From Spinacia oleracea (taxonomy: Eukaryota; Streptophyta; Magnoliopsida; Caryophyllales; Amaranthaceae), in the NCBI RefSeq assembly GCF_020520425.1, contig NC_079491.1, positions 3,038,001-3,102,000 on the forward strand: 64,000 bases of DNA, written 5' to 3'. Positions within the stretch are counted from its first letter, which is position 1. Each line of letters starts with the position of its first letter. The notes below the pieces were generated by a model. It searched no databases. It worked only from the letters and a program-made list of their open reading frames with translations, and was not told where the DNA came from. Below, one piece after another: positions 3,756-56,870 of the stretch. The position numbers and the translations under genes are program-made.

Positions 3756-3864
3756 CTTGTACTAATAATAAATAATAATTTATATAACCAATACAAAAAA
3801 ATAATTACAGTTTTAAAATCAATTTTCAGTGTTGTACAGTTATCCAAACACATATATAGGTAAC

Positions 3865-4331: not shown

Positions 4332-4399
4332 CGTTGACACTTCTAGCTATTTTATTCATCCATATTCTATAGATCAAAGTTAGAGAATTAAACAAAATA

Positions 4400-8934: not shown

Positions 8935-9392
8935 TAAAAAATACTATACGGAAACAACTTCTTAACTAAAAATGGTGACTTTATGCATGATATAATGGGT
9001 GTGCCTTCTTCTTCCTCTTATTTGCTCATTTGGAAACCAACGAATTCAATGGGCAAGTAAAGTTCTTGGTTATACATGCAGCATAATAAAAAAATTGCTT
9101 AATTATGATGTCATTAGTTGACTAATTGGTCGGAATATGAACTAAGGTAACAATTGATATCAATTGTTAGAATGGTAGATAGAAATTGAAAACTTTTAAC
9201 AATATAGTAAGTATTCTAATAGACAAACTCCCTATCAACCTCAGTAATATTGACAAATTTTCCGAGTATTGCCTTGAAAACTCCTTAGTAAATTGTAGGA
9301 ATACAAATAAGCATAATAATGATAATGAAATATAATGAAAATATCATAACTAATTCCAGTATTTTAATCGATAATATTATCCAGCTTGTACT

Positions 9393-9776
9393 CAGTGGCG
9401 GAACTACAGAGGGTCCTGGTGGGTCACGTGACCCAGTGAAATTTTGAAAAGGAAAAAGAAAGTAAAAAATGGGATCTAAGAGACCTGGTATATCTGAAAA
9501 CTGATCTCTTGGGTAATAATAAACCCCCCAGCCCCCCCCCCCCGACACATAAGAGACCGGAAGGGGCTGCTAAATTCTTAATCAAACCTAATAGAGCAGT
9601 CCCAAAACAGTCTGGTCTCTTAAGTTTTTGAATAATACACCTTCGGCGCATACTTTAAAACTACAAGCCCAGTTATTTAAACCCTTAACAAATAATTATA
9701 ATAATTTTGTAGGTATTTAATTGCAATATGAATATTTATTACTTTTGGGACCCGAAAAATTATGGATACGCTACTA
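9393..9776. mobile_element. hAT-like MITE (copy of 3366-3755)
   Basis: Same ends and the same 8-bp CTTGTACT flanks; 384 bp because the internal poly-C run is shorter. Confidence 0.85.
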
Positions 9777-9885
9777 CTTGTACTAATAATAAATAATAAT
9801 TTATATAACCAATACAAAAAAATAATTACAGTTTTAAAATCAATTTTCAGTGTTGTACAGTTATCCAAACACATATATAGGTAAC

Positions 9886-10061
9886 CAATGGCGGATCTTT
9901 GTTGTGGCTGGGGTGGGCCTGGCCCCCCGCCGAAAAATTTTGTAGTGTATTTTTAGTTACGGCCCCCACTAAAATTTGTGTATAATTGTATAATTACATA
10001 GTATATTGCTCAATTTTTTTCTACCGACCCCCCTCGTAAAACCGTTCAAGGTCCGCCACTG
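9886..10061. mobile_element. hAT-like MITE (copy of 3865-4040)
   Basis: Same inverted ends and TAGGTAAC flanks as the first copy. Confidence 0.88.
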
Positions 10062-10340
10062 TAGGTAACACAACACAAAATCCAAACACACACCCACACA
10101 CAAACAAAAAAAAAAAAAACCCCAATAAGGATAAAGTTAATTATTTTATAAACGTGCAATTAATACATAAGTAGTACAATTGTATATTGACTAAAACTCT
10201 TGGTTGTGGTCCTTGTGAATCCAGTTTTACTTCTTTTTACGATAGAATTAGGAAAGTTAGAGTTATATTCATGTTAAGCTTTTTAATTATTCTATGTTCC
10301 CGTTATTAGTTTTAATGTCGAGTAGGATTAGGAAACTATT

Positions 10341-10352
10341 GTATTATAAATA
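10341..10352 (+). promoter_or_regulatory. TATA box of STP copy C
   Basis: TATTATAAATA at the same distance from the ATG (10421) as in copy B; the promoters of B and C are essentially the same sequence. Confidence 0.5.
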
Positions 10353-10420
10353 CGTTGACACTTCTAGCTATTTTATTCATCCATATTCTATAGATCAAAG
10401 TTAGAGAATTAAACAAAATA

Positions 10421-13332
10421 ATGGCGGGTGGAATAATTATTGATGGTGGAAAGGTTGGTAAAGAGTATCCAGGAAAACTAACTGGTTACGTGTTTTTGAG
10501 TTGCCTTCTTGCGGCTGCTGGAGGATTGATATTCGGTTATGACATCGGGATTTCAGGTATATATTTTATTAATCGAATTATATTTTATCTCAAGGTTTAA
10601 TTTAATTCTTATTTCTTGAATTGAATTAATTCATCTAGCTAGCTAGTGATTCTCTTGATTACGGAGTAGTAAATCTCATATATACATGCTAATTAATTAA
10701 AGAGTATTAATCGTGCGTTTCTGATTAGCAAGTGATTGGCTTGAATTGATTTAATTGATCTAGCTAGTGATTTTCTTAATTAGTACTTCGTAAATTTCAT
10801 AAATCATGCTAATTAATTAAGAGTATTAATCGTACGTTTCTTATTAGATAGTGATTCTCTTAATTAGTAAATCTCATATATACATGCTAATTAATTAAGA
10901 GTATTAATTGTACGCTTCTTATTAGATACATCAATTTTTTTTAACTTTTTTTGACGGATACATCAATTGATATAATTATAATTAGTAAATCTCATATATA
11001 CATGCTAATTAATTATGAGTATTAATCGTACGCTTCTTATTAGATACATCAATTGATATAAATATAATGATATGTAGGTGGAGTTACATCAATGCCGATG
11101 TTTTTGGAGAAATTCTTCCCATCAGTGTATAGACAACAGATGGCGGACTCAGGGACGAACCAGTACTGTAAATTCAATAGCGTCAAGTTAACTATGTTCA
11201 CGTCCTCTTTATACTTGGCTGCATTAGTAGCTTCTATCGTGGCATCAACTGTCACTCGAAAGTGGGGCCGCAAGCGATCCATGTTTGTTGGAGGCCTCCT
11301 CTTCCTGGCTGGTGGTGCTATTAATGCAGCTGCTCAAAACGTTGCCATGCTTATCATCGGTCGTATACTTCTTGGTTTTGGCATCGGCTTCGCTAATCAG
11401 GTATAACTTCTTTCTATCTGACTTACTTTGACTAAACTGAAACTTATCTGAACTTAATTGAACTTTTATCAAGAATAAACTTATTTGTGTGTGAAAATTT
11501 CTGAAAAAAAACTTATTTTTTCTGAACTTATATTAACTATAATATATGTCGAACAAAATAGAGTTACAGTATGAGATGTTTATAAAATCAATCTAGAATA
11601 CGTTGAAATAATATTATTATCTATAATCAAAGGGGATCTACGTTGTACAAAGGGTTGTCTACCCTATTTTGTTTTTTTAAGAAACAAAAATCTTCAAAAA
11701 AAATTGAAAATTAAATTTGGCAGTAAATACAAGTATATAAGTAATACAACTACTAATTATTAGAGCAAAAAGTAATTGCAAATGAGACGTGCCTGGTTTC
11801 AGTAGATAGCCAATCTCACTCTTGTTACCCTATGAACACTTGTTAAAGTCGTCCTACAAGCATTTTTGTTAAACTTTTTCTTAACTTGATTTTTGCATAA
11901 TTACAATTATATACAATAAATTTTCTAAACATGTTAGGATTTTACATTAATATTCTAATATTGTATTCTGCATGTTCTTTAATCAACTTTTTGCTACTTT
12001 TAAATATAACTTCCTATTTTACTTAATTTTTTAAAGTGTGCTACTTGTTCTGGTATTGGAACATAGCGTCTAGCATATTAACTTGTTGATTAATGAGTAC
12101 TTAGTAATCAACCAATTCAAGTAATTATTGTTGAATAATTATATTTTGCAGTCAGTACCTGTGTTTCTGTCAGAGATGGCACCTTACAAGCATCGTGGTG
12201 CGCTAAACATGATGTTCCAACTCACAATCACAATAGGAATCCTCATAGCCAATCTCCTTAACTACGTATTTGCCAAAGTTGACCACATTGGGTGGAGGTT
12301 GAGTCTCGGAGGAGCTATGGTTCCTGCTCTCATTATCCTTTTTGGTTCTTTAATCCTTCCCGAAACCCCCAACTCCCTCATTGAAAGAGGCAAACCCGAT
12401 GAAGCTAAGAAACAATTGTTAAAAATCCGAGGGGTAGAAAATGTTGATGCCGAATTCGAAGACCTAGTTACAGCTAGTGAAGCCTCCGAGAAGGTGAAAG
12501 ACCCTTGGAAAAGCCTATTTAAGGACCGACAATATAGACCCCCTCTTATATTCGCCTTTGTAATCCCAATGTTTCAACAACTTACTGGGATCAATGTGAT
12601 CATGTTCTATGCACCTGTTTTATTTAAAACAATCGGATTTGCAGACGATGCCTCCCTTATGTCAGCGGTTATTACTGGTGGGGTTAACGTTGTTGCTACT
12701 TTGGTTTCTATTTATGGTGTTGATAAATGGGGAAGGCGCTCTCTTTTCCTTCAAGGTGGCAGCCAAATGCTCATTTTTCAGGTAATCCATCTTTTTCAAT
12801 TGATCTTCTTATTTTACTGAAATCATTAGAATAATTTGGTTGATTAACGACTTATAATATATCTATGTATTGTCAGATACTGGTGGCATCATTCATCGGA
12901 TGGAAATTTGGGGTGACAGGAGATGCAGCAAATTTGCCAGAATGGTATGCGATTGTAGTTGTATTGTTTATATGCATCTACGTAGCTGGATTCGCTTGGT
13001 CATGGGGACCTCTGGGATGGCTAGTACCAAGTGAAATCTTCCCTCTTGAAGTTCGATCAGCTGCACAGAGCATCAATGTATCAGTCAACATGATCTTCAC
13101 CTTTATTATCGCTCAAGCTTTCCTCCCAATGTTATGTGCCATGAAGTTTGGACTCTTCATCTTTTTCGCCTTCTTCGTGGTAGTTATGACAATATTCATC
13201 TACTTCTTGTTGCCTGAGACCAAGAACGTGCCTATTGAAGAGATGAATCTTGTTTGGAAGAACCACAAATTCTGGGGTCATTTCATTCCAGATGATGTAG
13301 TTACTCCAGAGATGCCCGTGCTTAAGGCGTAA
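10421..13332 (+). CDS. STP-type sugar/H+ symporter copy C (complete)
   Basis: A 514-aa monosaccharide/H+ symporter of the STP family. Exons are 10421-10556, 11078-11400, 12152-12781 and 12877-13332. Exons 1-2, both flanking introns and the promoter match copy B. From position 12416 the nucleotide sequence diverges from A and B, yet every difference I could find in exons 3-4 (about two dozen) is synonymous, so the protein is unchanged. Motifs are as in copy B. Intron 3 is one base shorter than in A and B. The 3' flank is clearly diverged from the A and B flanks, which suggests C represents the older partner of the array. Confidence 0.95.
10639..11066 (+). repeat. Tandem repeats in intron 1 of STP copy C
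   Basis: Copy of the array at 4618-5045; same units in the same order. Confidence 0.8.
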
Positions 13333-16020
13333 TTAGTTTTTTTTTATATATTTTATCTTTTTAAAGATCAATAAGTACTAAAGTATTATATATGCCAGGA
13401 TTTACTAGATAGACGTGTTTAATTCATCCAGTCACTAACTATTATGAAGTTATAATAAATTTGTACGTTGAGAATTTTCACAAGGAGTTATTTATTTGTT
13501 TATTATTATGCACTAATTTTATCATGTGTTTATAAATAAATATCTTAATTTTGACTAATTAATTATAATTGATTCCCATTGATCACAACGTATACCATCC
13601 TAATTAAGATATTTACACAACAATATTCTGATGTACAAATATTTTTTGACTATATATTAACATATTCTATAACCAACTAGGCCTCTCCCGTTATTGTTTG
13701 AATCACTCGTTCTTTATTTGTGCAACTGCAATGGTTGAGGTATACTCCTAGGTACTTCCTATATATTTTTCTCATTACTTAATCACTAAATAAAAACCTA
13801 CAGATGAAATAATACTAACTTCTAATATTGAATTCCCAAAATTTGATGCCGGAACAATATAGAATTATAATTTTAACTCATCTATATTATTAAAGTAGAG
13901 TGGTGACTAATAAAAGGCCTCCAAAACCCCGATTCTGAAACCACGACTACTCCACGTCATCACCCTTAATTCCCTTGAATTTAGCTGAATCAAATAGAAA
14001 ACTATCAAAGCATGACATTAAAATATCAACAAAGGGAAAAAAGTTACGGAGTACTAACAAAAAAAGAAAATATGTACAATTTTAGTTAATTCAAATAATA
14101 ACATGAATAAAGAAGGAAACTAAAATTAATGCTCTTTTTTATTAGCTTCCTTTTTTATAGAAATCTCGTGCATTAGCACGGACATAGACTTGTTGTTCAA
14201 TAATATAAATATAGAATTATAATTTAAGAAACTATAAAATAATCAAACCTCAAACCATGTATTAATTTCTTGTAATAAAATTATTTATTTAAATCTTTAA
14301 CATGAAAAAGATACCTTGAACCAAAACATGTTGCAAGTCTATAGGTTAAAATATTCCAATCAAAATTGAACATGATCAAAGTTGGATAGCAAGAGAATAA
14401 TGAAATACATTTCACAAATGATATAATGAAACCAAAAAACAATACATTATTAAAAAAAAAAAAATTAAAAAAAAAAAGGTCCAATTGGTTGCCAATTTGC
14501 CATGACACCATCAAGCATACTCCACTTTGAGAATGGATCAAAGTTAAAGGTCCAAAGGCCCGTCAAAAAAAAGGTTAAAGGTCCAAAGGCATCGTAGCAG
14601 GCTTGGCCCAATCTTTGCAGGAATCTCCCTCCAACGGCCCATCAAAGGCCCAAACACTTCTTTGTATCCAAGGTTCAATTAATCGAGAGTGTAGACGTCA
14701 ATACTCAATACGGAGTACATCATTTTGTTGTTGATAATCATGTCTCGTTGTCTGTTTATTGTTGAGGACTTGAAGCAAAGTTTCGTGAATTTCAATGTAA
14801 CTTTTCAATAGAGAACATTAGAACACTATGTACAAAAGCAACTTTTTGTACGTTATACTATAAATTATAAGCTTATGCAGGATATAACTTGTTGTGTCTT
14901 TTCTCCCCCTCATTTGCTCATTTGGAAACCAAATAATTCAGTGAGCAAATAAAGTTCTTGGACCTTTTGGTTATTCCGGCTGTACAATAAAATTTGCTTA
15001 ATTATGATGTCATTAGCTCACTAATCAGTTGGAATATGGACTAATGTAGCAATTGACATCAATTGGTTAGAAAGGTAGGTAGAGATTGACAACTTTTAAC
15101 GATGTAGTTAGTAATTAATAAACTCCCTATCAACCTATGTACTATTGACAAATTTCGAGTATTGCATTGAACAATCCATAGTAAATTGTATACATAAGCA
15201 TCCTACATTGATTCCCCTTGACTTTAGTCACTAATATAATATAAATAGGATGTTATTGGATATTGTCTTAATTAAATAGGTCATGGTGTGGTGGAATAAG
15301 CAAAGTTTCGTGAATTTCTATGTAACTCGCTAACTAATAAGACTATGTAGAAAACCACTTCTTGTGCGTTATACTAAAAAGTATGAGCTAATACATGATA
15401 CAACGGTTTGTCCCCCCCCCCCCCCCCTCCCGTTTGCTCATAATGAGCAGAATAAATCTTGATTATACCGATTCTATATTAAAAATTACCAGCATATAGC
15501 TAGTTTTTTTTATTTGTTTTCTTTTAATTTAACGATCAAATAACTTAACACAATGTATCTTTCATTACGATTAAAGGATTAACCCACTATTATAATATTC
15601 AACTTTAAAATTCAATGCATCCAAATAAGTGACGTACAAATACCCTCCAATTTTATGCCCAAACTTCATGATCCATCTCTTTCACACCAACACCACCCAA
15701 AAAGCCTATCAACATATAAATGGTAAAAATATATTCGAAAATTAAAAATCTTTAATGATTCTCCCACCTCCATAAAAAAGAATCAAACCTTCAAAACAAA
15801 TCTCATTTTCTTTAAATTCCCCAAACTACCCTCCAACCTAAACCACCCAATTTCAAAATCCAACCCCTATTTCCGTCATTTCCCAAAAAACTCCTCGTAA
15901 TTTAAAAAGCTTTAAAATTCATTTCCTTTAAAATCCCCAAACTACCCTCCAACCTAAACCACCCAATTTCAAATCCAAGCCCTATTTCCGTCATTTCACC
16001 CAAAAACGCTCTTTCATAAT
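13333..16020. other. Intergenic region: diverged STP 3' flank, then FBL17 upstream
   Basis: No gene. From 13333 to about 15200 it is a diverged paralogue of 1286-3250, with shared segments near 14281-14420 and 14570-14960 and insertions or deletions elsewhere. A further partial copy of the same flank lies at about 15200-15470, ending near a poly-C run at 15413-15427. Confidence 0.7.
13881..14192 (+). mobile_element. Non-autonomous Helitron-like element, 312 bp
   Basis: Begins TCTATATTATTAAAGTAGAG, the typical plant Helitron 5' end. Near the 3' end it has a hairpin CGTGC-ATTA-GCACG, then ends ACTTG, close to the usual CTRR. The insertion is between A and T without a duplication: the paralogous A and B flanks (about 1717 and 7744) read CTCA-TTGTT uninterrupted. 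No RepHel coding sequence. Confidence 0.82.
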
Positions 16021-19100: not shown

Positions 19101-21609
19101 GTGTTGGTTTTTGTTTCTTATTACAAGAAGAGAAAGCATTATACTCTTTTTTAATCAAGCCTACAATTAGATATGATGATGATGAGGTTTAATAAACTCT
19201 AATGGTTGATGTTTCTTCATATTCAGGGGATTGAGAATGCTCTCATTAGTGTTGGGTTCTGGCATCACAGATGCTTCTGTTGCTGCCATTGCCTACAGCT
19301 TTTCAAAGTTAGAGCTCCTTGACTTGAGTGGGTAATGCCTCAGCTTCAGTTGTTTTTATTGCTTTGTTTCCAGTATACTGTTTTTCTGCATGAATCTTAT
19401 ATTGTTTTTATTGTTGATTCAGGTCTGGCATCACTGATAGTGGCATTGGAATGATATGTAACGTGTTCTCCCGAACTTTGTCAAGATTGTTGCTAGCTCT
19501 TTGCCCTAATATCACTTCAAGTAATTTCCTATTTCCTACCTTTTTTTCAAGTATTTCACCACTATCTCTATTTGGGTTTCATTTGGAAGATCTATATTGA
19601 TTTTAAAGGAACTAACTTCCTTCCTGTTTATGATTAGGTGGGATTCAATTTGCCACAGCACAATTGCCTTGTCTGGAGCTAATGGACTGTGGTATGTCAA
19701 TTTGTGATCCAAACGTGGATGATGTTTCTGTGAAAGAAAGCAATGATAATGAACCACAGAAAAGTAGCAAGTTGCATCATATGTATCAGAAGCTTATCAT
19801 TAAGCATAATCGACTGAAGAAACTTAGCTTGTGGGGTTGTTCTGGCTTAGATGTGAGTCCCTTTGCTATGCACAGATAGGCTTAATAGACTTTTTATATG
19901 TGAACTTGTTTCTGACTTGGGAAGTTAAACAAAATGCAGGCTATTTGCTTAAACTGTCCAGAACTCAGAGACCTGAACCTTACTTCCTGTAAAAATTTGC
20001 AGCCAGGTTTGTATTTTGGAATGTCTAATTTACAATTGATGATTTTGGTAAATACTGTTAGTTAAGGTTTCTAATGAGGTTCTTTGCTTTATTTAGAGAG
20101 GTTGCTACTTCAGTGTTCCAATTTGGAAAGTGTTCATGCTGCTGACTGTGAAAATTCGCTACGTGAGGTTATTGAAACTCAGGTATATATCAATTCCCTC
20201 GTACAAGTTCAATGATAAACATTCCCCTGACCATGCTCATCTCAGTGTTGTTTCATCTTGTTGATTATGAAGTTTAGCATTAAACTTTTATTATAGTGTT
20301 TCAATATAGAATTCCATTGAAACTTTATGCATTAAGAATTCTGCCTGTAAAGTTTAAGCTGAATGATCAATGCCTTAGTAGCCCTTATTAAAGAACTTTA
20401 GTGGATAATTTGGTCTGAAGTTACACAATCATCAAAAGCAAAATCATACTCAAGACTCAAGAGTGAAACTTATGAAAGTGATTTTGGGAGTTCATTAATT
20501 ATGTGGGATATACTTAAATGAAGTTAGTATTGTGTTCAAAAGAACCCTGGAATTGAAAAAATCAACCTGTTTGACATTCATTATGAAATTCTCGCAGATT
20601 GAAAATGCTCCACTAGAAAGCCAATATCTAAGCAAGCGCATGGCTGATGGATCCAAGAGAGTTAGAGTTCCTCACATTCTCAGCCAACAGGTACATATTA
20701 TACTCTTGCAGAACATACTAAATTACTTGGTGATTTTATGTTTAAATTACTGGTGCATTGGTTCCTAAAGTCCTTCTGTTCAATGTTGCCTTAAACTTTG
20801 ATCACTGAACTTTGAGCACAGACCAGAACTAGCACACTGTCTTTTCCCCATTTGTCATAAATCTCAAATTTGATTTCCTATGATTCGTTTTCTAGACTAT
20901 TCGTCTCAGGCTCTGTTTGGTAGGGTGTAAACCCTTTTCATGGAAAAGGATTTTCCCCTTTTCAGTTGTTTGGTTTGGCAAGGGATGAAAAACTATTTCC
21001 TTAACTCCCTCAAAGGTGGAAAAACATTTTCCATTTGAATGGAAGGGAAACCCACTTTTCCACCTTTCCTCCTTACTTCCTTCTCCCTTCTTCCCATGAA
21101 TATTCACCCATATTCTCCCATTTTCCTTTGTCTATTACCAATGAAAAAGGAACCAAAAAAAGGAAAACTAGTCCATGGAAAATCATTTTTCACTGAAAAT
21201 GTCTTAAGCTAAACCAAACGAAGCCTTAGTCCGGTTTGGCTATGTTTGACATAAGAATGCCTTATGTATGATACTTCCAAAATATCTGCTTGTTCTGATA
21301 ATATGATCTCCCTATCCTTGCCCTAGTCTTTTAAGTAAGCTGGTGTTTGTTGCTCTCGAGCTACCAATTCTGCCCATGATATTTCATGCATTAACATGTC
21401 ACAAGAAAGTGAACTAAATGTTTAATTTTGGTTGATGATGCACCCTAAACCCTAAACACTACTACACCAGAGTCAACTTTTGTTACCATATCTTTTTCTT
21501 GGCTGTTAAAATTGAGCTAAATGTTTAATTTTGGTTGATGCAGCCTTCTTCTGATGATTCCAAGCAATACCGAGCTCCCAAACGAAGATGTGTTGTATTT
21601 ATGGGATGA
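16174..21609 (+). CDS. FBL17: F-box/LRR protein FBL17
   Basis: Substrate-recognition subunit of an SCF ubiquitin ligase that removes KRP-type CDK inhibitors, allowing S phase and male germline division (established for Arabidopsis FBL17). Eleven exons: 16174-16757, 17903-18004, 18648-18792, 18905-19089, 19227-19331, 19423-19520, 19638-19852, 19940-20006, 20097-20182, 20598-20690, 21544-21609. Every junction is GT-AG and in frame; product 581 aa. The N-terminus has the family signature RRGSYNCGRCGLPKKGHVC (Cys34, Cys37, His44, Cys46). An acidic linker and the F-box (about 120-160, MWEVMKRLPPSSVLLASGVC) follow, then leucine-rich repeats such as LDLSGSGITDSG and LKKLSLWGCSGLD. The C-terminus is basic (APKRRC). 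An AATAAA signal lies at 21819-21824. Intron 10 carries a MITE. Confidence 0.94.
20909..21225. mobile_element. PIF/Harbinger-type MITE in FBL17 intron 10
   Basis: Ends GGCTCTGTTTGGTAGGGTGT and ACCAAACGAAGCC are imperfect inverted repeats. The interior has mirrored GGAAAA/TTTTCC blocks. Flanks are TCA and TTA, a slightly eroded 3-bp duplication. Same family as 54568-54912 and the outer element at 25.6-26.5 kb. Confidence 0.75.
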
Positions 21610-25427: not shown

Positions 25428-25680
25428 AACACGTGTGAGTATCTCACATTGATAAAAGAAAACAGATAGATGTTCGTGTAATTGGCTAAGCAGTTAGGCT
25501 AGTAGGGTGTAAAACGTTTTTATGGAAATTGATTTTTCCTTGTCAAACAAAACAACACGTGTGAGTACTTCACATTGATAAAAGAAGAGAGATCGATGTC
25601 CGCGTAATTGAATAAGTAGTTAGGCTACGTATGATAGGGTGTAAAACGTTTACATAGAAAACGATTTTCCCCTTTTAAAT
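25428..25680 (+). repeat. Tandem duplication of about 126 bp at a Harbinger MITE end
   Basis: The block from ACACGTGTGAGTA through TAGGGTGTAAAACG occurs twice in a row with about 85-90% similarity. The second copy leads into the MITE at 25623. Confidence 0.7.
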
Positions 25681-26530
25681 CTTTTACGTTGTTTGGTTTG
25701 ACAAAGGATGAAAAATAATTTTCTATAACTCTCTCATAAGAGGAATAACATTTTCCATCTGAAAGTAATGGAAACCACTTTGCCATATTTCCTCCTTACA
25801 TCCATCTTTCTTTTTCCCATCAATTTTCACCCATTTTCCTTTTTCTATTACTTTTCTTGTAAGGAACCAAACAAAGGAAAATGATTTTTTGGTATTTACT
25901 ACCTTAAAAATACACCAATTTTGTATTTACTTCCTTATGAAAATTTTATTTTAAATTACTACCTTTAAGTTCCATTTTTTTTGTATTCACTACCATTTTA
26001 CAATTTTTCCATTTTAAAATTGAGATATCTCTTTCGTTTCTTAATCATTTTAAGTGATTCAAAGCCCATTCTTCTCATTTATATGTAAGGATTCCATAGG
26101 GATCTTACCTTTTAACATTTCGTAAAAGTTTAAACAAATTAAATATTATTTTTAAAATTTTAAAATGTTTATGAATTATCAAACGAATTTTTTTGAAATG
26201 ACATTCTCAATGAAATCCCTATAGAAAAAGGAAAATAATGAACTTCGAATTACTTTAAACGATTAAGAAACGAAAGAGATATCTTAATTTTAAAATGAAA
26301 AAACTGTAAAGTGGTAGTAAATAAAAAAAATCTGGAAGTTTAAGGTAGTAATTTAAAATAAAAATTTAATAAGGTAGTAAATACAAAAGTGGTGTATTTT
26401 AAAGGTAGTAAATACCAAAATTTCCAAAGGAAAATTATATATTTTAAAATTGTGTTTTCTTATGAAAAATGTTTTCCATTGGAAAATTATTTTTCATTGA
26501 AAAGTTTTACACCAAACAAAACGGTTTCTT
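25623..26530. mobile_element. PIF/Harbinger-type MITE interrupted by another MITE
   Basis: Starts GGCTACGTATGATAGGGTGT. Its right half resumes after 26435 and ends near AAAAGTTTTACACCAAACAA. Aligns with 20909-21225 and 54568-54912 once the inner element is removed. Outer ends are eroded. Confidence 0.7.
25883..26424. mobile_element. MULE-like foldback MITE nested in the Harbinger MITE
   Basis: A 542-bp near-palindrome: arms of more than 200 bp start GATTTTTTGGTATTTACTAC and (inverted) GAAATTTTGGTATTTACTAC. Flanked by a perfect 11-bp duplication CAAAGGAAAAT (25872-25882 and 26425-26435). TSD length and long inverted arms fit Mutator-like elements. Confidence 0.85.
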
Positions 26531-44200: not shown

Positions 44201-45951
44201 ACCATCTAAAGTCTGCACATACACTTTGTTCAGTTTATAGTAGTATAACTATGTTTGAATTGTTATTTGCTATTATGTGATACTTTCAGCGAACCACCAA
44301 AATGGTGTTTGTAAGTAATTTTCTTATTCTTTTACACATTTTTTCCATGTTGTTTTGCTTTGGTTATTTTGCATGAGCAGATCACCATGACTGCACTTGA
44401 AGAAATGTTTGAAGCAGCACGTCGCATAATGGGTTGGCTCGGTGACTGCGCAAAGGTTTGTGATCTTTGACCTACCTGTCCGCTACAATTTCATGTATGC
44501 AAGTTAATGTAATTTTGAGCGTCAAGTTTGATTCTGCTGATTTCCTGACTAACAAAAATATTTCCTTTTCAATAGTTAATGTGTAGAATGTGAAGTCACT
44601 GTAATATGTAGTGTTTGGCATGCAGTAGGTAGTTTAAAATTCTTTACTCGCAGTTCGTCTAAATTTGTCTGTAAAACAGATCATAGCATCCGAAAACCAG
44701 CCCGTGCGATGGACAACACCTCTTGGACTCCCTGTTGTTCAACCTTATCGCAATTATGGAAGACGCCTTGTAACATTCTAAGCTCATAGACTTTTGGCTT
44801 GTACTTTTTCTGAAGGTTTTTCTTCTCTTCCCCTAACAAGCAGTTGATATAATTGCAGATCAAGACTTCTCTTCAGGTTTTAACCCTTCGTTGTGATACA
44901 GATAAGGTAAACCTTACCCACTTTATAGAAGCAAACTTAGGCCAAATTCTTTTGAGCTGAACTGAACTGAACTGAATTATAGTAAATGATAAATTGATAA
45001 ATCATAAATCATAAATAATAAACAACATTTCCTCTAAATTTTGTTACAAGGCTGAGATTTTATTTTGTGTATGTGGCAGATCATGGTTAAGCGCCAGAGA
45101 ACAGCATTTCCTCCAAATTTTGTCCACTCTCTTGATGGTTCCCACATGATGATGACTGCCGTTGCCTGCAAACAAGCTGGCATGTACTTTGCAGGTCTGT
45201 TTTGTATGCTCAACTTGGATCATCCTATCTCCAGGGGATTGTTGCTTATCTCATTCTAACTATTTGGTCCGCTCACTTGACTTCTATAGGTGTTCATGAT
45301 TCATATTGGACACATGCATGTGATGTTGACGAAATGAACCGGATATTAAGGGTGAAGTTTGTTGAGCTCTATGAACAACCAATACTTGAGAATGTAAGTA
45401 TTTTTATATGATGAGTACTCTTTTGGTCCATGAAGTTTTGTTTATCCACTAAAACCTTTTGTTTCTTTTTCTCCGTTTATTTTGGGTCTGTTTGAGCTGG
45501 AAAAGTCTCTTTTTTGGAGACTCAACTTTTTCCTTGCCTTAGTACTGTACTAAATATAAACTCTACACAATTAGGGTTCAACACACATGAACCCCTTGAA
45601 ATTGAGCTTAGGCCGAGCTTTAGGCTCTATTTTGCTCACCTTATTTCACTTATTTCAGGAAAAATAAGTTTAGGAAAAATAAGGGTTGACCAAGTACAAT
45701 TTATAACTAAAGTTTTGATAAGTTCAGGAAAAATAAGTGAAAATCAGGTGAATAGAACGCACCTTTGGTTCATTGCAGCTTACTGTAGTTTATTTGCATT
45801 CGTGACATATCTCTAACTTACACGGGATATACATGTGCAGTTGTTGGAAAGCTTTCAAGAATCATTCCCGACATTACAATTTCCTCCTCTCCCTGAACGT
45901 GGAGATTTTGACTTACGAGATGTTCTGCAGTCTACCTATTTCTTCAATTAG
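35259..45951 (+). CDS. RPOT1: Mitochondrial phage-type RNA polymerase RPOT1 (RpoTm)
   Basis: Single-subunit T7-like DNA-directed RNA polymerase that transcribes mitochondrial genes. Nineteen exons: 35259-36071, 37450-37650, 37757-37890, 38646-38715, 38844-38902, 39223-39340, 39462-39575, 39662-39793, 39899-40315, 40424-40474, 42524-42594, 43092-43176, 43465-43617, 44381-44455, 44680-44769, 44859-44906, 45080-45194, 45290-45393, 45841-45951. All are GT-AG and in frame; 986 aa, close to Arabidopsis RPOTm. The start [15 protein letters not shown] resembles RPOTm and a mitochondrial presequence (basic, no acidic residue until Glu9). Core motifs: [31 protein letters not shown], catalytic Asp687 in [12 protein letters not shown], Lys762 and Tyr770 in [25 protein letters not shown], and catalytic Asp919 in [10 protein letters not shown]. 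It ends STYFFN. The start was chosen over an upstream non-ATG frame extension. RpoTmp is the alternative, less like the N-terminus. Confidence 0.95.
36072..36830 (+). repeat. Tandem repeats in RPOT1 intron 1
   Basis: Three to four copies of a unit of about 224-234 bp containing AATCATAATCCTGTTA, TTTCATAGCATGAGCATCAC and TTGGATGAACAATGTGGAAA. The first unit begins at the exon 1 donor; later units repeat a donor-like GAGGTAATGATC. Confidence 0.88.
40637..42089. mobile_element. hAT-like non-autonomous element in RPOT1 intron 10
   Basis: About 1.45 kb with inverted ends TAGGGGTGCTAATCGAGT / CTCGATTAGCACCCCTT, an Ac-like hAT terminus. Flanks GATATAAT and GCTATGAT match at 6 of 8 bases, so the duplication is eroded. 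No transposase frame. It carries a Stowaway MITE. Confidence 0.7.
41695..41942. mobile_element. Stowaway MITE nested in the hAT-like element
   Basis: Ends CTTCCTCCGTTCTTTTT and an inverted relative ending AACAAAGGAAG, with TA flanks. The interior resembles the family at 24843-25101. Confidence 0.85.
45623..45763. mobile_element. PIF/Harbinger-type MITE in RPOT1 intron 18
   Basis: Inverted ends GGCTCTATTTTGCTCACCTT and AGGTGAATAGAACGCACC; flanks TTA and TTT. The interior repeats CAGGAAAAATAAG. Same family as 53941-54126. Confidence 0.75.
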
Positions 45952-46924: not shown

Positions 46925-47291
46925 CTCCCTCCGTTTCTTTTTGTTTGTTACGTATTCCTTTTAGGGTGTTTCACAATGTTTATTACATGGGAGAATATTT
47001 CATTTTATAAACTTATTATATTGTCATTTTTTGTGCCAACTTTTAATTTTAATTGGTCCAATTTTTTCAATTCATTAAATTTCTTTATAATTTCCCAAGT
47101 ATGTTAAGTTAACAATTTGTGTGCTTTGGTTCATTTTGATAAATAAAACAATCTTATTGGTTGTTGTAATGATTAATGGATTGAGGTTTTGCTTGGGTTT
47201 ATTTTTTTAATAAAAAAGATAAAGAATCTTTATTATACGTTAATAAACGTGCAAAAGTCTAAACGTAACAAACAAAAAGAAACGGAGGGAA
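46925..47291. mobile_element. Stowaway MITE (367 bp), copy 2 of the 28953 family
   Basis: Ends CTCCCTCCGTTTCTTTTTG and CAAAAAGAAACGGAGGGAA with TA flanks. Similar over its full length to 28953-29326. Confidence 0.9.
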
Positions 47292-47872
47292 TACTATTAA
47301 TGGTTAAAGATGTGCATTGACAAACGTAAAACTCCAAATAGTGCAATTATAAAAATGATGATGCATTTTCTTTGTTTCTTTTGCTGATGGATAACATGGA
47401 TTGGTAATCGAACCGCTTAGTTTAATAGAACGACCTGGTTAATCGACCATGGTAACACCCCTAGTCTCATTATTTAATGCTTCACCAATTCTCTTTTAAT
47501 TACGACATTATGACAAAAACAAGTTATGATACTTCGTATTATTTATCTAAATTTATTTTGGTTGAATATTGAAACAATTTCTAGTATGTTACGAGTATTA
47601 TTTTAGTTTACTTTGAGGAAACAAGTTTAAGTTTGTTAAGAAAAAATAAACTCCTGTAAAATAAGTTTCAAAATGATTCCTAATTGTACATTAATACTAC
47701 CGTTATTAACGTATTAGATAATATAAATTCAGATAAAATAAATCAAATAAACAACAGACGCGAGTACATGGTAACACGTGGCATCTTTCTTTTAAGTACT
47801 CCGTAGATTTTCTGATTTGAGAAGACAAACAATTGAACAAACAAAACAAAGGTTGTTTCAGTTAAAACAACA

Positions 47873-50800
47873 ATGGAGGTTTCATGTTTTCCAGCCACAT
47901 CAAAAGGAACTCACTCCCTTTTCCCTTCTTCATCAGGTTCTCTCTTTCTCTCTCCTCCCATCCCGTTGCTTTCTTTCTGTATTAAGTTATTGCCTTTTGC
48001 AATTTCTTTGTGTATTTCAAAGTTTCGATTTTTAACCATTAACTTATCTTTCGTATTGTTCTTCCACATTAATTTTCGGATTGTTTTGTTTCTTTTCATC
48101 GGTTGGTGAATTGCGATCATACTTAATGGGTTTTTAGAGTATGAAAGTTGGAAGCTTTCCTTGAATTCACTTGGAATTAATGGTTTTTAAAGATTAAGGC
48201 TTTGGAAAAATTGATGGGTTTACAATAATTCACTAATTTGATTGTTAGTTTGTGTTCAGCTTTGTGTTTTTCTTAGTATAATGCTAACAGTAGGTTGCTT
48301 TAATTTGTGTAATTCATTAAAGAATGTAAATTTGTGGTAAATATGTGGTTATAATGGCATGGCAATGGTAATCAGATCAAAGGTCTAAAACTAGGTTCTA
48401 GATCATCTATACACCTTGGCCCTGGCCCAGCCCGGCCCGTCCCAGGCGCTTACACTGTTGTTGACGACAGGGATGGGGGCTAGGATGGAATTTGATATAT
48501 TTTTCTGGTTCAATGTTAGTAATAAATCTTATGATCTTGTCTAGCATTTATCAAGAGCAAGAAAATAGTTACTTGCTGATTGTATCAGCATGTATGACCA
48601 GCAAAGTGCAGTTGGCCAATTTGATAAGAGTGATTGATATTTAGTTGTAAATGTTTTATAAAGACACGGATCCCATGATTTTAGTAGATTGTGTTAGAAG
48701 GTTTGATTTGTAGTTGGTATTTTCATTAATTAAGTCCTTTGTAATTTGTAAAAGAATTAACATGAAAAATCTATTAGAGATGGATGGAGTATATGCTAAT
48801 CATAATACATCATAAGTAGTAGATTGAACAATCAATTCGGCCTCATAAGTCATAAGTAATTTGAGTTATTCTATCCACCATCTCTTACGTAGTACTTCCT
48901 CAGTGTTTTTTAATAGTCGCACCATTTCGATTTTATCACTATCTTCACACTCTTATATGGCCATCTAACAATCTTCCTTTGACTTTATATTCATAATTCG
49001 TGCTCATTGTTTGAGCATAGCCGATTTGTGTCTTAAGTCATAACAATTATTTTTGCTAATTTCTTCAGAATTGCTAAAGGGGGTAAGGATATCTCCATGG
49101 CATCAAGCTTATGTATCCGTAGCGTTGACTAGTAAAAGAAAACAGCCGTTGCTTTATGCCGTCACATCTAACTTTCAAAATAAAGGCACTCTAAAGGTAC
49201 AGCTATTGAACTGGTAATGATTTACTTCTCTGGTGTAGTATGCACTATGTAGTAGACTAAATGAGTAATATTTGAGTTTTATTCAAGGTTGCTTCCCACC
49301 TGTTTCAAGTATCATGTAGCCGCAAGAATGAAGCTTCTCTACTGGAAGCCAGGTATGATGAAGTCATATAATATAAGACAACTTAGTGTGTTTAGTAAGG
49401 TATGGTAAGATCGCTGCATGTTAATGAGAAGTGAATCACACAGACTTGAATTTGTTGTTTAGTAGCTTAAGTTACAGTTGTAAAATCTGAAAGTTTTCCT
49501 TTAAATGAGTTGCGTAATGGAAGTGGGGATTTGAAGCTAAAGAAACTTAGAGGGTCAGCTTAGTCATGATTTTGAAGTTTGGACACTTAATATTTTAAGG
49601 AGTCGAGAGCTGAGACGCACCAGGAGAGGAGTCTTGAACTTTTGCAAGTTCGTATAGGTTTTTGGTCATTGGCAGGGTTACCTAATGTGTAGTATGATTT
49701 AGCACAAATACGCTACGAATATTGAATACAAGGGTTAGTCGAATTGTAATATGTTTTGAGGTATTTTGAAATACGAATTTTGATAACATAATATGGAATA
49801 CGGTACTTCATTTAAATTGAAAAAAAAAGAGTACATAATTACGTTTAATCAAAAGTTATATATCATCAAAATACCTTGAAGACTGACTTAAAAAAGAAGA
49901 GAAAATACTATAAAAAAAATACACAATATAGATTAAATACTCCTAGAGTCCTAGAACATCAGTTCCTCCTTTTTTCCTTTCCTTTTCTTGACGCAACACA
50001 TATATCTTCCACCCTTGCCCTCTTTGAGTTTTGTGGAAGATTATCACGCTCAACAACATTCTCACCAATGTTTTGACCTTCAATAGCAGGATCTAGACCA
50101 ACCCATCTTACATCTTCAAGTGCTACGGGTGATTCCTGGAGCTTTCAGTATTAATATCCCACTTTCTCGATGGCCCTTTCTTATAGTTCTTAGCAAACCG
50201 AAATATAAGACGAAGGTTAGAGTGTATATAAAACAACTTAATTGCTCTTGCTCTTGTTAGTTTGTTCCTCTTCAAAGTATGAACTAAGCCATAAGTACTC
50301 CAAGCTTTCTCTGCCGATGAACTACTTATTGGTTGAACCAACACTTACTTAGCCACCTCTGCCAAATCAGGAGTTTGTGACCCATAAACTGACCACCAAT
50401 CTATAACATACATAGTGTCAGAATCAGTCTGAGCTTGTACCATAGAGTAAATCCCCTTATTCAACCAAAAATCAGCAAATTGATCTCGTATTTTTTTTTC
50501 TTCGTCAGCGTCTTCTGCTACTTTTGCAAATGTTTACATACAACCCACACCAACCTCTCTGTCTAGATTTGGAGCTCTTCTAGTAAAATCCCCTGGGAGT
50601 AGGTGCTTCAAGATAATGTTTATCATAGAAACAAGGTGATAACGCAAAGCCTAAACAGTGAAGAGGAATAATCATTTTATCCCACCTAGTTACAAGTATG
50701 GTTTCCATTTGAGGGAATTCGTTTTTATACTTGCTATCATCTATTACATCTTCTATTTCATCAAGCATATTGTCCATTCTTTCATAAATCTCCCCTATCC

Positions 50801-53800
50801 TATGGCCATCGGCCCATCCCAATCATAATACTTCAGCAATTAGTAAATCATATAAGTGACACTAACAATTTCTCCGACTTCATTCCAAAAATTATCATCA
50901 TGAATACTTTTAACCACCAAAGAACTCAGAGAGAGTTTTAGTATATGTATCCTGCTTTGCAATACTATCTTTATAAGCCCTTAAAACGACTTTGGTTTTA
51001 AGTGTTTCTTTACAAGATAGTAGCCTACTCAAGAGGCAATAATGTGAACCAAACCTTGTCTTTGCTACCATTAAAACATTCTAGTTGAGCTAGTTGAGTT
51101 TTCTTTAAACAGTGAAATCACATACAAGTTTGGTAAACAAGTAAGTGTTATCACTGTTTAAAGAAAGCTAGAATGTTGTTAATGATAACAAATTCAAGGT
51201 TTGGTCACATTATTGTCTCTAGAGTAGGTTACTATCCTGTAGTGAGGCACTTGAAACTACAATTGTTTAAAGGGTTTATAAAGATTGGGTTGCAAAGAAA
51301 GATGCAGCTACTAAAACTCTGAGTTTTTTTTTATGGTTGAAAGTATTCATTATGATACTTTTTTGAATTGAAGTCTAGGAAATTGTTAAAGTTACTTATC
51401 CAATTTACGAATTGCCAAAGTATTGTGATGGGGGAGATTTATGAAAGAATGGACAATATGTTCGGTGAAATAAACGATTTAATGGATGATAGTTAAACAC
51501 GAGTTCCCTCGAATGGAAACCTTACTCGTAACAAGGTGGGATAAAATGACTATTCCCCTTCACTGTTTAGGCTTTGTGTTATCACCTCTATGACAAAAAT
51601 TATGTGAAGGTCCTGCTCTTGGTATTTTACTAGAAGAACTCCAAATCAAGTCAAAGAGGTTGTTGTCGGTTGTATGGAAGTATTTGCAAAAGCAGCATAA
51701 GATTCTAATGGAGAAAACAAATTACGAGATCTATTTACTTAATTTCAGTTGAAAAAGGGGATTTACTCTATGGTACAAGCTCAAGCTGATGCTGCCACTA
51801 TGGATTCTATTGATTGGTGGTCAGTTTATGGGTCACAAACTCCTGATTTGGCAGAGGTTGCTAAGTAAGTGTTGACTCAACTCAACCAATAAGTAGTTCA
51901 TCGGCAGAGAGAACTTGGAGTACTGATGGCTTAGTTCGTCCTTTGAAGAGGAATAGACTAACAAACGCAAGAGTCGATAAGTTGTTTTATATACACTCTC
52001 ACTTTCGTCTTATATCTCGGTTTACTAAGAACGATAAGAAAGGGCCATCGAGAAAGTGGGATATCAATCCTAAAAGCTCTTGTTTGGAGGAATCACCCTT
52101 ATCACTTGAAGTATAAGATGGGTTGGTCTAGATCCTGTTGTTGAAGGTCAGAACGCTGGTGAGAATGTTGTTGAGTGTGAGAATCTGTCACGAAGCTCAA
52201 AGAGGGAAATGTTGCAACGAGAAAGGAGGAACTGATGTTCTAGGAGTATTTAATCTATATCATGTATTTTGTTTCTATATTTTCTCTTCTCTTTTAAGTA
52301 TATCTTTAAGGAATTTTGATGACATAGGACTTTGATTAAACGTAATTATGTATTTTTTTTTTCCAATTTAAATGAAGTCTCGTATTATGTTATCAAAAAT
52401 CGTATTTCAAAATAATTCAAAACTTATTACAATTCGACCAACCCTCGTATTCCATATTCGTACTACGTATTAGGTAACCCTGGAGATCTTCATATGATGT
52501 ATTACCCTGGGACACCTAATAAACTGCCAAAAAATTTAGCACATTTCATCTATACGTCTTAGGTGGGTGTTTTTCCTATCAGCCAGTGTTGGATCTAGTG
52601 TAATACATTCTATGAAAGTTGGTCAATTCTAAGAGGCTTCCCTCCTATTCCTATTGATGTTTACTATTACTACTCTATATTAGTTGTTTGGACTGGATTT
52701 CAAACAAGATTCGGAGCCTTTAAACACTTGCTGGGAGCAAATTGGGAGTTTGATGTCATGTATGATCTTTATGTGATATAGGTAGCATTATGTTGTTTGG
52801 GAATCTTTGGTTGCTGTTTGGGAGTCAGGGATTCTTACTTGTGTTACGAAGTAACTCTCAATCTTGGCTTTAAGCTTTCTGAAATATGTTTTGTTAACAT
52901 GTCTAAGCTAAGGCTCAAAACTTTTCTTATCCACCACAATTCTGTTGAATATTACTCGTTTATGTAGTCTCTTGATTTTTGCTGTGAATGCATAATGCTT
53001 AAAACCTTATTTATTTACAGTGTTCATTGTTTTTTCATGATTATTGATACATTTTATTTTAAGATCTATGGATGAGGTGTATGATTCTCTGGCGGACCGT
53101 CTTCTTCCTACTGCAGCCGTGACAGCAAACCCCAACTTTAAGTAAGCTTGGTTCCATTTATCTTTTTTTCTTTTTCTTTTTTCTGCCTTACCATTGCGCA
53201 AGTCTTCTGGTGCAACTGGCAGAGTTTTGGAAGATCTCCTGTTAGTTTATGTTATACCTATAGTTCTTTGGAAAATGTTTGTTCTTAGGAACAATATGTG
53301 CTGCAACCCGTTGTTTATTGACTTTGACTATTGTATTCGTTTACTGTTATAATGAAGTTGCAAAATCATAATGTATAGCAATGGTGTTCTTATGTACTTT
53401 TTAAGACAAATCTAGCAATGGTGTTCTTATGTTTTTGACAATTAACTGTCAAAACCTAAAACTTGGTCAATTTTGACCACCAAATTTTTTATGGAGTCTA
53501 CTCCGTGCTGTTTTTAGAGTAGAGGGAGTGCTGTTATGTGCTGTGTTTGCTTTATATAAAAAAAAGATCTAAACAAACTATATACGCTGATTGTTGAGTA
53601 AAATGCAGGTATATAGTCGGCTTGGCTGGTCCTCCTGGTGCCGGAAAAAGTACGGTGGCCCACGAAGTGGTTCAGCGGATAAACAAGTTATGGCCCCAAA
53701 AATCACCTTCCATGGACGAACAAGTAGGATCACCAGATATTGCTACTGTTCTCCCCATGGATGGATTTCATCTTTATCGTAGTCAACTAGATGCGATGGA

Positions 53801-56800
53801 GGTTTGTCTTTTCTCTGAGATGTTCTATTTCATTGCTTGCACCGCATATGTTGAATTTAATTTGAAAGAATATATCAACTCCACGTTATTTCATGAATAC
53901 TTTATTTGGTATCATGTAATTAGCGTTAGATAAAGTCTTAGGGTGCGTTTTATTCACCTTATTTTCACATGCTTTTTCTGAACTTATTTTATCTGAACTT
54001 AACTGAACTTATCAAAACTTATTTTAGTTGTAAATTGTACTTGGTCAACCCCTATTTTTCTTAAACTTATCTTATCTGAACTTATTTTTCCTGAATAAGT
54101 GGAAATAAGGTGAACAGAACAGAGCCTTATAGGAGAAAATACGAGAAAATTCAGTCATTCACTATAGGAGAAATATAGCTAGCCTGTCCGAAACATGATG
54201 AATACTATGTTGACTTTGTTTTGCTAAGTTTATTATCCAATTACTTAAAAAAATTAATTTATAATCCAATTATCTTTTTCACCATCGTTATTAGGATCCC
54301 AAAGAGGCTCATGCAAGAAGAGGAGGTAAGGCTCTTTACTTTTTTCAGTCCGGTGCCGTTTATTCTGATCTTTGAAATGCTGATAGAGTCTCACCTTTTG
54401 TAACATTAGCTCCGTGGACATTTGATCCGGCAAGGTTACTTAAATGCCTCCAAAGTTTGAGGAGTCAGGTAACTTCTGCTGCTATTGATTTAGAAAGATG
54501 ATAATTATTGTTTTTAGTTCTTAACATGATGCTAGCACATACTATGATGAAAAAAGATGGATACTAAGGCTCCGTTTAGTTGGGTGTAAAACGTTTTCAG
54601 TGTAAAATAATTTTCCATGGAAAACATTTTCCAAGGGAAAACACAATTTCAAACTAGTTTTCCTTTGTTTGATTCCTTAAAAGAAAATGGGAGAAGATGG
54701 TGAACATTGAGGGGAAGAAATGAGAAGTAAGGAGGAAATGTGGAAAAGTGGAAAAGTGGTTTCCCTCCCTTTCAAATGGAAAAGGTTTTTCTAACTTTGA
54801 GTGAGTTATGGAAAATTGTTTTTCATCCCTTGCCAAACCAAACAATGTAAAATGATTGAAAAGGGGGAAATCATTTTCCATGAAAACGTTTTACACCCTA
54901 CCAAATGGAGCCTAAAGGAGGACGGGTCTTAATAGTTGGATAGTATAACTATTTTAGTGTTTTTGCACTATTCTTCTGATACATGATCAATTTACCAGGG
55001 ATCCGTTTGTGCACCATCATTTGATCATGGCGTGGGAGATCCTGTTGAAGATGACATCTTCGTCTCCCTTCAGTAAGTAAATGCTCTTTGCACAAGATTA
55101 TATACGTCCCTTGTAAATTGCTGGTGATACTGATGTTTTCTGGTATTGAACCCTTACCATATGACTCAAGATATTCAAGCTCACTTAACCAATTGTGCTT
55201 ACCAATATAATTCGGCTTTCTTAACGGTTTTATCTCCATTCCAACAATTTTCTGCCTTCAGCGTTTCGACCACCAAATATAGTTAGGGCTACAAGTTCCG
55301 ATGGTCTTTTTGGAATTTCTTATGTATTGTCCTCATTCTACTTAAAAAAACCTTTGAGATTAATTTTAATAAACTCGTGATGGAACTATCTGGATCTGCG
55401 CCTGATAGGCGACTGTTTTCAGGTCAACTTTAAATTTTGTTTTTTATGTAATTCTGTTTGAATTTCTTGTATGCAGGCACAAAGTTGTGATTGTAGAAGG
55501 AAATTACTTGCTCCTAGATGAAGGGGTTTGGAGCGATATTTCTTCTGTCTTTGACGAAAAATGGTAAATCTGCTTGTTTGATTTTTTTTCTTATGATGCT
55601 TCTGTTTAAGCTGTTATCGTGAAGTAAGAATTTCATACAGCATCTTATCACTCAGATGAAGTTCTTATTTGATTGTTGATTAAAAATGAACTAGCATGCC
55701 AAAAAAACAGTTTGTTTAGTTCAATAATACTGAAAGATCACAGTGGCCACGATGTATTATGAAATCGATGAAGCCATAAGATTTATCTGCAATGTGTACT
55801 TAAAAGATAAATAAAAATCTTCTGTCAAACACAGTTCTGTAACTGATCAGGATGTTTTGAAGGGTGATAGTAAAACTCTACCAAAGGTTCCGTAACAACA
55901 AGTAATTAAACTGAGAAATTCACAAATCTGTTCTGTTTAGTCAAGAAAAATCATATTAACATTGGGTTTTAGCAAATTCAAATGGTTATTACATGCTTGC
56001 ATTGTTCTAGTAATCTGCACTCAAAACTATAACAAAGGTTTTGACAGTTTCAAGTGAATTTTCTGTTGTGAATGTGTGAAGGTTCATCGATGTTGACCTT
56101 GATTCATCTATGCAACGGGTTCTGAAGCGGCATATGTCAAAGTGTATGTATTCTTGTTTTACAAAATGGTTCAATGATTAACTGCTTCCATCAGTTCTGA
56201 TTTTTCCTGTTGGTTCATTGTATATTATTACAGCTGGGAGGTCTCTTGATGAAGCGAAATGGCGGGTAAGTCTTATGAACGACATTTCTTTCTTTTCCGT
56301 TCTTTGTTGGACTGTTTCTAGCAAAACCAAATCCTCTATCCCACTTAGACTTGATCAAATACAGCCCGGCCCGCTGGCCCGATCCAAAAAGTGCGGGTTT
56401 GGGTAGCCTAAATTTTTTTACACCAAAACCCGAGCCCGGCCCGAAATCCTGTTTTGGCCCGCACCAAATTTATAAATTTGGACATTGTTTTTTTGTGTTA
56501 AAACCCGACCCGGCCCGAATTTTGATCACCTCTAATCCCACTTTGCCACTCGTTTTCCAGACAAGTGACCGGGGATTAACGGTGACATACATGATACATC
56601 TATGAGGCACTGTTCTTTTTGAGCTAAGCTGAACTGAACTGAACTAAATTTTCATGAAATTCAACCAAAAAGAATAGGGCCTAAGAACATTTAAATTTAA
56701 ACAAAAAAAATAGGAAAAAAAAGATTTGAAATGGTTTTTAGCGCTGATTACTAACTTGCGAACCAATATCTGCGTTCCAGATCGAGTACAACGACCGTCC

Positions 56801-56870
56801 CAACGCCGAGATGATTATGAAGTCGAAGAAAAACGCAGACTTGGTTATAAGGTCAATCGAAACCTCGTAA
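47873..56870 (+). CDS. P-loop kinase, uridine kinase-like family (similar to Arabidopsis At1g03030)
   Basis: Putative small-molecule kinase of the PRK/uridine kinase/pantothenate kinase P-loop group; the plant members have no firmly known substrate. Twelve exons: 47873-47936, 49069-49196, 49288-49352, 53064-53141, 53609-53801, 54295-54325, 54410-54468, 54999-55072, 55477-55563, 56082-56143, 56234-56265, 56781-56870. Frame continuity holds throughout; 320 aa. The N-terminal ~85 residues are Ser/Lys-rich with few acidic residues and could be a plastid or mitochondrial targeting sequence. Walker A is GPPGAGKST (119-127). Then come PMDGFHLYRSQLDAM (substrate-loop Asp), DPKEAHARRGAPWTFD, VVIVEGNYLLLDEGVW (Walker B-like strand), and LKRHMS...LDEAKWR (lid region). 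The end is EYNDRPNAEMIMKSKKNADL. Exon 10's donor is ambiguous (see findings). Intron 3 carries a hAT palindrome. Confidence 0.9.
50580..50822 (-). pseudogene. hAT transposase fragment (left arm)
   Basis: About 80 codons with IYERMDNMLDEIEDVIDDSK, then FPQMETILVTRWDKMIIPLH and CLGFALSPCFYDKHYLEAP, a stretch recognisable from plant hAT transposases just before the C-terminal dimerisation domain. The dimerisation segment follows in another open stretch at 50123-50344. The N-terminal zinc finger and the catalytic first half are absent. Confidence 0.8.
51427..52050 (+). pseudogene. hAT transposase fragment (right arm, decayed)
   Basis: Mirror copy of the left-arm coding region: GEIYERMDNM at about 51430, RWDKMTIPLHCLGF at about 51535, SQTPDLAEV-type sequence at about 51835. 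It carries several stops and frame changes, so it is more decayed than the left arm. Confidence 0.75.
53941..54126. mobile_element. PIF/Harbinger-type MITE in kinase intron 5
   Basis: Ends GGGTGCGTTTTATTCACCTT and AAGGTGAACAGAACAGAGCC with a perfect TTA duplication (53938-53940, 54127-54129). Same family as 45623-45763. Confidence 0.87.
54568..54912. mobile_element. PIF/Harbinger-type MITE in kinase intron 7
   Basis: Long inverted ends GGCTCCGTTTAGTTGGGTGT and ACACCCTACCAAATGGAGCC with a perfect TAA duplication (54565-54567, 54913-54915). 345 bp. Same family as 20909-21225. Confidence 0.9.
56346..56534. mobile_element. hAT MITE with GCCCGGCCC motifs in kinase intron 11
   Basis: 189 bp, starts TAGACTTGATCAAATA and ends TTTGATCACCTCTA, with a perfect 8-bp duplication ATCCCACT (56338-56345, 56535-56542). 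Same family as 62543-62742. Confidence 0.88.
56606..56681. mobile_element. Short Harbinger-like MITE remnant
   Basis: 76 bp with inverted ends GGCACTGTTCTTTTTG and CAAAAAGAATAGGGCC; flanks TGA and TAA. A related GAGCTGAACTGAACTGAACT stretch occurs at about 44955 in RPOT1 intron 16. Confidence 0.6.

Follow-up and report, generated by a model that had tools for sequence, protein, structure and literature searches.

What does a giant palindrome of transposon sequence do inside the intron of a plant gene? This question is raised by a 64-kb window of the spinach (Spinacia oleracea) genome (64,000 nucleotides of contig NC_079491.1, the whole stretch that was analysed), in which two partial copies of a hAT transposon stand head to head within intron 3 of a kinase gene. 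Inverted transposon duplications are one proposed way in which plants first recognise a transposon, and maize Mu killer is their best-known natural example. The preliminary description of the window put the palindrome forward as a candidate for silencing its own family by the same hairpin route. Our analysis leads to a different answer. We consider it fairly likely that the palindrome is an old palindromic hAT derivative, probably a relic, and that present silencing of other transposons is unlikely.

The palindrome occupied positions 49673–52482 of the window, exactly the ends first described. Its left arm (1460 nucleotides, nt) started with CAGGGTTACC at 49673, and its right arm (1350 nt) ended with GGTAACCCTG at 52482. 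The spacer between the arms was 1–3 nt (centre at about 51132–51134), in agreement with the claim of almost no spacer. The two arms aligned over 1335 columns, of which 1144 (85.7%) were identical. The substitutions comprised 107 transitions and 84 transversions, the gaps had 21 openings, and the Kimura two-parameter (K2P) distance was 0.160 (bootstrap 0.137–0.184). No other inverted repeat in the window is as long, the runner-up being 543 nt.

The genome searched contained 894,210,420 bases in 242 contigs, with the window on contig 5. The genome match searches skip very common words, and their match counts are lower bounds. With the left arm (49673–51000) as the query, the right arm was the top other match (80%, E = 0), ahead of one at 74%. 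A protein search with a 62-amino acid peptide of the left arm showed 72% identity to the right arm; other matches reached at most 71%, that one over a 24-residue piece, and long matches at most 69%. A total of 34 related loci (L021–L054) were fetched, and the weak places C4:107210713, C4:132569077 and C1:34200911 were left out. The transposase part was inverted in none of 14 fetched relatives (L035–L054 lay outside this check), and the genome searches gave one inverted pair only among the matches listed. The several palindromic copies of a foldback family were thus not found among these matches. Galileo transposons have a foldback structure. The palindrome resembles foldback-type Galileo of the P superfamily in its long inverted arms, as given in the available part of PMC4168063, but differs from it in having no family among the matches listed.

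A feature of hAT transposons is a short terminal inverted repeat of CAGGG type. CAGGGTTACC was present at both palindrome ends, and CAG...CTG ends were present in eight relatives. The domain Dimer_Tnp_hAT (PF05699) exceeded the Pfam cut-off in one open stretch per arm. A relative with an intact reading frame does exist in the genome, where the preliminary description had proposed to look for intact relatives: the frame of L022 stays open for 742 amino acids (stop to stop) and contains DUF659 and PF05699. The arms correspond roughly to the C-terminal half of this frame plus the 3′ terminal region. Over the coding part, the nearest other copy was L026, at a K2P distance of 0.27–0.29 from the arms. 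Over the terminal 100–200 nt, some short relatives were nearer than L026 (up to 84%).

The arms carry marks of decay. The right arm had 7 stops in 353 codons and the left arm 3 in 372, in line with the earlier remark that the right arm has more; one of these stops was common to both arms, and these counts depend on the alignment. The divergence between the arms at first, second and third codon positions was 0.185, 0.139 and 0.125, without a third-position excess. The corresponding values between arm and L022 frame were 0.27, 0.23 and 0.44, with a third-position excess, and those between the two arms and L026 were 0.226/0.170/0.257 and 0.245/0.183/0.269, with a slight one. These patterns indicate that the divergence from the L022 family was largely under codon constraint, whereas the divergence between the arms was not. 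Both arms would have decayed neutrally after the duplication. At a neutral rate near 7 × 10−9 per site per year, the K2P distance of 0.16 corresponds to roughly 11 million years, and a faster rate would make the palindrome younger. Plant transposons are commonly methylated. A methylation-decay signature was looked for, but C:G to T:A changes were in no clear excess: among the polarised changes they accounted for 25 of 70 on the left and 22 of 81 on the right arm (41 undecided).

The RNA of the palindrome was predicted to fold with −1661 kcal/mol, compared with −592 to −696 kcal/mol for five window stretches of the same length. The predicted fold had 1197 pairs between the arms in 116 helices, the longest of which ran uninterrupted for 47 bp. 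The proposed duplex of about 1.3 kb is therefore borne out in its strong predicted folding, but it is imperfect, being divided among these 116 helices. The strength of the fold and the length of its helices make a long imperfect duplex plausible. The kinase pre-mRNA would be predicted to form such a hairpin; the intron would probably be spliced out, and Dicer products would be expected mostly to match intron 3 itself best. An Rfam scan of the window gave no match at the gathering threshold.

Such a hairpin may act in cis. Small interfering RNAs (siRNAs) from the intron would then methylate it and tune the transcription or the transcript ends of the kinase gene, comparable to heterochromatic introns. 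The stability of the predicted hairpin is consistent with this, as are small-RNA levels in rice, which at some loci vary with whether a long inverted repeat is present (available part of PMC7649420). According to the same part of PMC7649420, the rice repeats are probable small-RNA precursors, and the palindrome is like them in being a genomic repeat able to form hairpin RNA; it differs in being a transposon relic in an intron. OsIBM2/IBM2-dependent genes with heterochromatic introns are likewise intact genes with a long transposon-derived sequence in one of their early introns (available part of PMC7145194), and the palindromic form is special to the spinach intron. On the other side, the splice sites and the reading frame of the host gene are intact, so the gene seems to tolerate the palindrome. 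The ratio of observed to expected CpG was 0.49 in the left arm, 0.65 in the right arm, 0.58 in L026, 0.57 in the left flank, 0.24 in the right flank and 0.30 in L022, giving no clear signal for or against methylation in cis. The palindrome may make small RNAs acting in cis, but we think an effect of this kind on the kinase gene rather unlikely.

Silencing in trans is less probable. Here the palindrome would be a hAT counterpart of Mu killer, now or recently: the host promoter would drive the hairpin, and the siRNAs would silence hAT transposons elsewhere. Its shape speaks for this, because an inverted partial transposase duplication with both termini from one element end was indeed found, and arms of about 1.3 kb in or beside a host gene are also seen in Mu killer (available part of PMC3440606). 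The strong predicted fold agrees with it too. Moreover, the other loci of the palindrome clade, L026 and L027, are both broken, and the sister clade keeps the 742-amino acid open frame. However, exact palindrome 21-mers were few: 45 of 2790 were present in related loci (7 of 34 loci), and none in the intact-frame family L021–L025. This family has apparently moved in recent times. L025 represents a separate insertion, whose target-site duplication differs from that of L024, and the two loci are 96.8–99.0% identical in their two aligned pieces. A near-identical active target family was not found in the genome, as far as these lower-bound searches reach. The lack of any sign of constraint in the arms, the distance of the nearest copy and the few exact 21-mers thus stand against the claim that the palindrome silences its family, and the hairpin route is doubted for Mu killer itself (available part of PMC3440606). 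From these comparisons, the palindrome is unlikely to be silencing other transposons at present, and we regard the palindrome as an improbable counterpart of Mu killer in function. A role at birth, with identical arms and close living relatives, could have existed. More speculatively, a Mu killer analogue in the kinase intron would have contributed to silencing its own subfamily to extinction, with L026 and L027, the other clade members found, left broken; the sister clade, in which L021–L025 have no exact 21-mer in common with the palindrome, would have retained its open transposase frame and apparently its recent mobility. We give this little credence.

Several points weigh against the reading of the palindrome as a silent relic of one duplication. 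Plant siRNAs tolerate some mismatches, and 575 of the 2790 palindrome 21-mers matched a related locus with at most two mismatches, which leaves room for action in trans and favours a Mu killer counterpart to that extent. Helices of up to 47 bp persist and could serve as substrates for Dicer-like enzymes. Transitions that keep a G-U pair outnumbered those that make a mismatch (61 versus 46), which leans toward kept pairing, although the difference was not significant (P = 0.18) and a mutation bias on the sense strand could give the same lean. The fold was compared with natural stretches of the window rather than with shuffles of the palindrome. Some of the lineage leading to the arms and L026 may have escaped constraint early, since first positions differ more than third positions between the arms and the third-position excess against L026 is slight. 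The host gene model was joined by hand from 12 exons on GT...AG signals, with splice signals and homology rather than RNA as its basis. Finally, neither a parental element nor an empty site turned up that would tell how the insertion took place.

The mudrA-side end of Mu killer is the 5′ side of mudrA. The available part of PMC3440606 states that both terminal repeats of Mu killer derive from this end, that its two incomplete copies of mudrA join at an inversion point some 1.3 kb inside, and that the locus lies between two genes; the structure was obtained primarily from Southern blots, and its centre was not spanned by sequence. The spinach palindrome is therefore closer to Mu killer in anatomy than had been claimed, sharing termini of one element end, inverted partial transposase copies, a size of about 1.3 kb and host genes on either side. 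It differs in being a hAT and not a Mutator element, in carrying the 3′ transposase end instead of the mudrA-side end, and in having arms that are 14% diverged, lie inside an intron and have few exact matches to relatives. The hairpin part of the parallel is weaker. According to the same part of PMC3440606, plants with silencing contain short antisense transcripts that arise within Mu killer, and the read-through transcripts are sense and not involved, although minor longer transcripts might still act via a hairpin. This evidence casts doubt on the hairpin route, and shape alone is insufficient for a functional claim. Judged from its sequence, the palindrome is a palindromic hAT derivative encountered once in the searches, a structural analogue of Mu killer and probably an old relic. 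The one-ended anatomy of Mu killer is thus met in another superfamily, kept in an intron until the arms were 14% apart. The palindrome is a datable fossil and a site at which to ask whether small RNAs from such hairpins persist. Should it produce none, it would serve as a negative case in which structure alone makes no silencer.

How did the palindrome arise? The two ends of the L034 element can be distinguished. Its 3′ end matched the window at both palindrome ends, and its 5′ terminus had no match in the window, including the vicinity of the palindrome. This indicates that the palindrome has two 3′ termini and no 5′ terminus, as implied when both arms were first described as the 3′ part of a single hAT, and not the one 5′ and one 3′ terminus of a normal insertion. 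The 8-bp target-site duplication of a normal hAT insertion was also missing, as had been noticed, with the flanks agreeing at 3 of 8 bases. Eight relatives were checked for comparison, picked because both ends were recognisable; the duplication was perfect in seven and matched at 6 of 8 bases in the eighth (L034). No 8-mer in the same orientation, with at most one mismatch, was common to the outer 40 bases of each side. The left 8-mer GTCATTGG had no second copy in 47001–55000, where one inverted match with one mismatch (54237) was found. The right 8-mer GAGATCTT had direct one-mismatch matches in this interval at 50572, 51726, 51909 and 53817, an exact inverted match at 53231, and inverted one-mismatch matches at 49407, 50920, 51634, 53061 and 53564. 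None of these matches in 47001–55000 lay at the position expected of a target-site duplication. A second ACCCTG was seen at 52504–52509, starting 22 bases past the right end of the palindrome, which may be chance.

The intron flanks next to the palindrome had no other match in the genome searches, which skip very common words; the weak matches of one flank query fell in its first 130 bases, which belong to intron 1. The left and right flanks compared with each other gave nothing beyond short chance-level matches. On either side the palindrome ends exactly at the terminus, next to unique intron DNA and with no target-site duplication, which suggests that an aberrant event mediated by transposase or repair made it. 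The two 3′ termini without a duplication also fit the proposed origin by rearrangement or aberrant transposition. A chromatid-fusion origin, from which a flank duplication is expected, was rejected because the flanks share short chance-level matches only. Fold-back micro-homology at the breakpoint was also considered; L028 has ACAAATATTTGT there, but a perfect short palindrome is absent from L026 and L027, the closest relatives, and no conclusion is drawn from this candidate.

A maximum-likelihood tree was built from both arms together with 12 relatives, those among the 34 fetched whose coding sequence sufficed. In it the arms were sisters with support of 100/100 and end branches of 0.077 and 0.094, followed by L026 and then L027. 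The stop common to both arms was at transposase codon 614; it was not among the L026 stops found and was absent in L022. The sister arms, the common stop and the lack of a third-position excess between the arms point to a single event, and the sequences are best explained by one inverted duplication in an element that was broken beforehand, better than by two insertions or an assembly fold-over. This event would have copied the 3′ 1.3–1.5 kb of the broken hAT head to head, with the loss of the 5′ half. Two independent opposite hAT insertions, joined later by loss of the middle, could by reasoning also yield two outward 3′ termini without matching flanks, but the same three observations argue against them, and the truncation points coincide within about 3 nt at the centre; we hold this very improbable. 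An assembly fold-over, a concern raised earlier because palindromic reads can in general cause such artefacts, is almost certainly the wrong explanation, since it would leave near-identical arms, whereas here 14% of the aligned sites are different, the alignment has 21 gap openings, and the flanks are unlike each other.

Alternative transposition of maize Ac/Ds uses the 5′ and 3′ ends of different elements. It resembles the event proposed here in that aberrant hAT ends give duplications and inversions (available parts of PMC3744419 and PMC8225341), but both ends of the palindrome are 3′ termini. In the titles and starts of abstracts searched, neither this locus nor a hAT palindrome like it was described, which is weak evidence of absence.

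The placement of the palindrome in intron 3 of a kinase gene, as first described, held on the hand-built gene model. Exon 3 ended at 49352 and exon 4 started at 53064, and the palindrome made up 2810 of the 3711 bases of the intron. The host protein matched the PRK/uridine kinase domain PF00485 of Pfam (E = 7.7 × 10−15). Its best NCBIfam match was NF006743 (nucleoside/nucleotide kinase family, E = 1.5 × 10−50), which was under the curated cut-off of that family.

Table 1. Positions in the window of the palindrome, its parts and the host gene.
Feature	Position	Strand	Remarks
Host gene, coding part, 12 exons, 320-amino acid PRK/uridine-kinase-family protein	47873..56870	+	Hand model from splice signals; frame intact
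Intron 3 of host gene, containing the palindrome	49353..53063	+	GT...AG; reading frame kept
Left flanking 8 bases	49665..49672	.	Without duplicate at right end
Left terminal repeat, hAT 3′ terminus type	49673..49697	.	88% complementary to 52458–52482; 81.6% over 158 nt to L034 element 3′ end
Left arm, hAT 3′ part (transposase C-terminal part, minus strand)	49673..51132	-	Dimer_Tnp_hAT E = 7.4e-05 at 50123–50344 minus
Palindrome centre	51097..51169	.	35-nt arms, 83% complementary, 3 nt between
Right arm, inverted copy of the hAT 3′ part of the left arm	51133..52482	+	Dimer_Tnp_hAT E = 2.6e-05 at 51865–52116 plus
Right terminal repeat, hAT 3′ terminus type	52458..52482	.	25/25 bases equal to L034 element 3′ end
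Right flanking 8 bases	52483..52490	.	3/8 equal to left 8 bases

Some related loci showed features of their own. L028 contained a 368-nt self-inverted alignment (3676–4037, 73%) near the 3′ side of its hAT, apparently a nested, unrelated repeat. L034 had a 160-nt inverted repeat in or by the element, away from the transposase part. The flanking 8-mer CTTCCAAG or its complement was common to L021–L024, and these four loci were alike far beyond it. L021 also encodes DUF4218 and DUF4216 proteins beside the sister hAT. Because these proteins adjoin the hAT and the four loci have one flanking 8-mer, on our reading a CACTA-like element may have carried one hAT insertion along.

Other repeats were present in the window. 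A tandem unit of about 6 kb occupied 30–13547, where 30–7528 and 6052–13547 were 98.9% identical and 30–1501 and 12073–13547 were 95.2% identical. Intron 5 of the kinase gene contained 29-nt inverted ends (79%) flanking a 130-nt middle (53940–54127), with an inverted relative at 45622–45727; this is probably a miniature inverted-repeat transposable element. A shorter palindrome-like stretch at 25887–26420 gave a 543-nt self-inverted alignment (80%). On its two sides, 25620–25881 and 26425–26524 were inverse matches to parts of 54572–54915, which lies in intron 7 of the kinase gene, and 20908–21205 was a further inverse match. The flanking inverse matches suggest that 25887–26420 may be nested in another copy of the intron 7 repeat.

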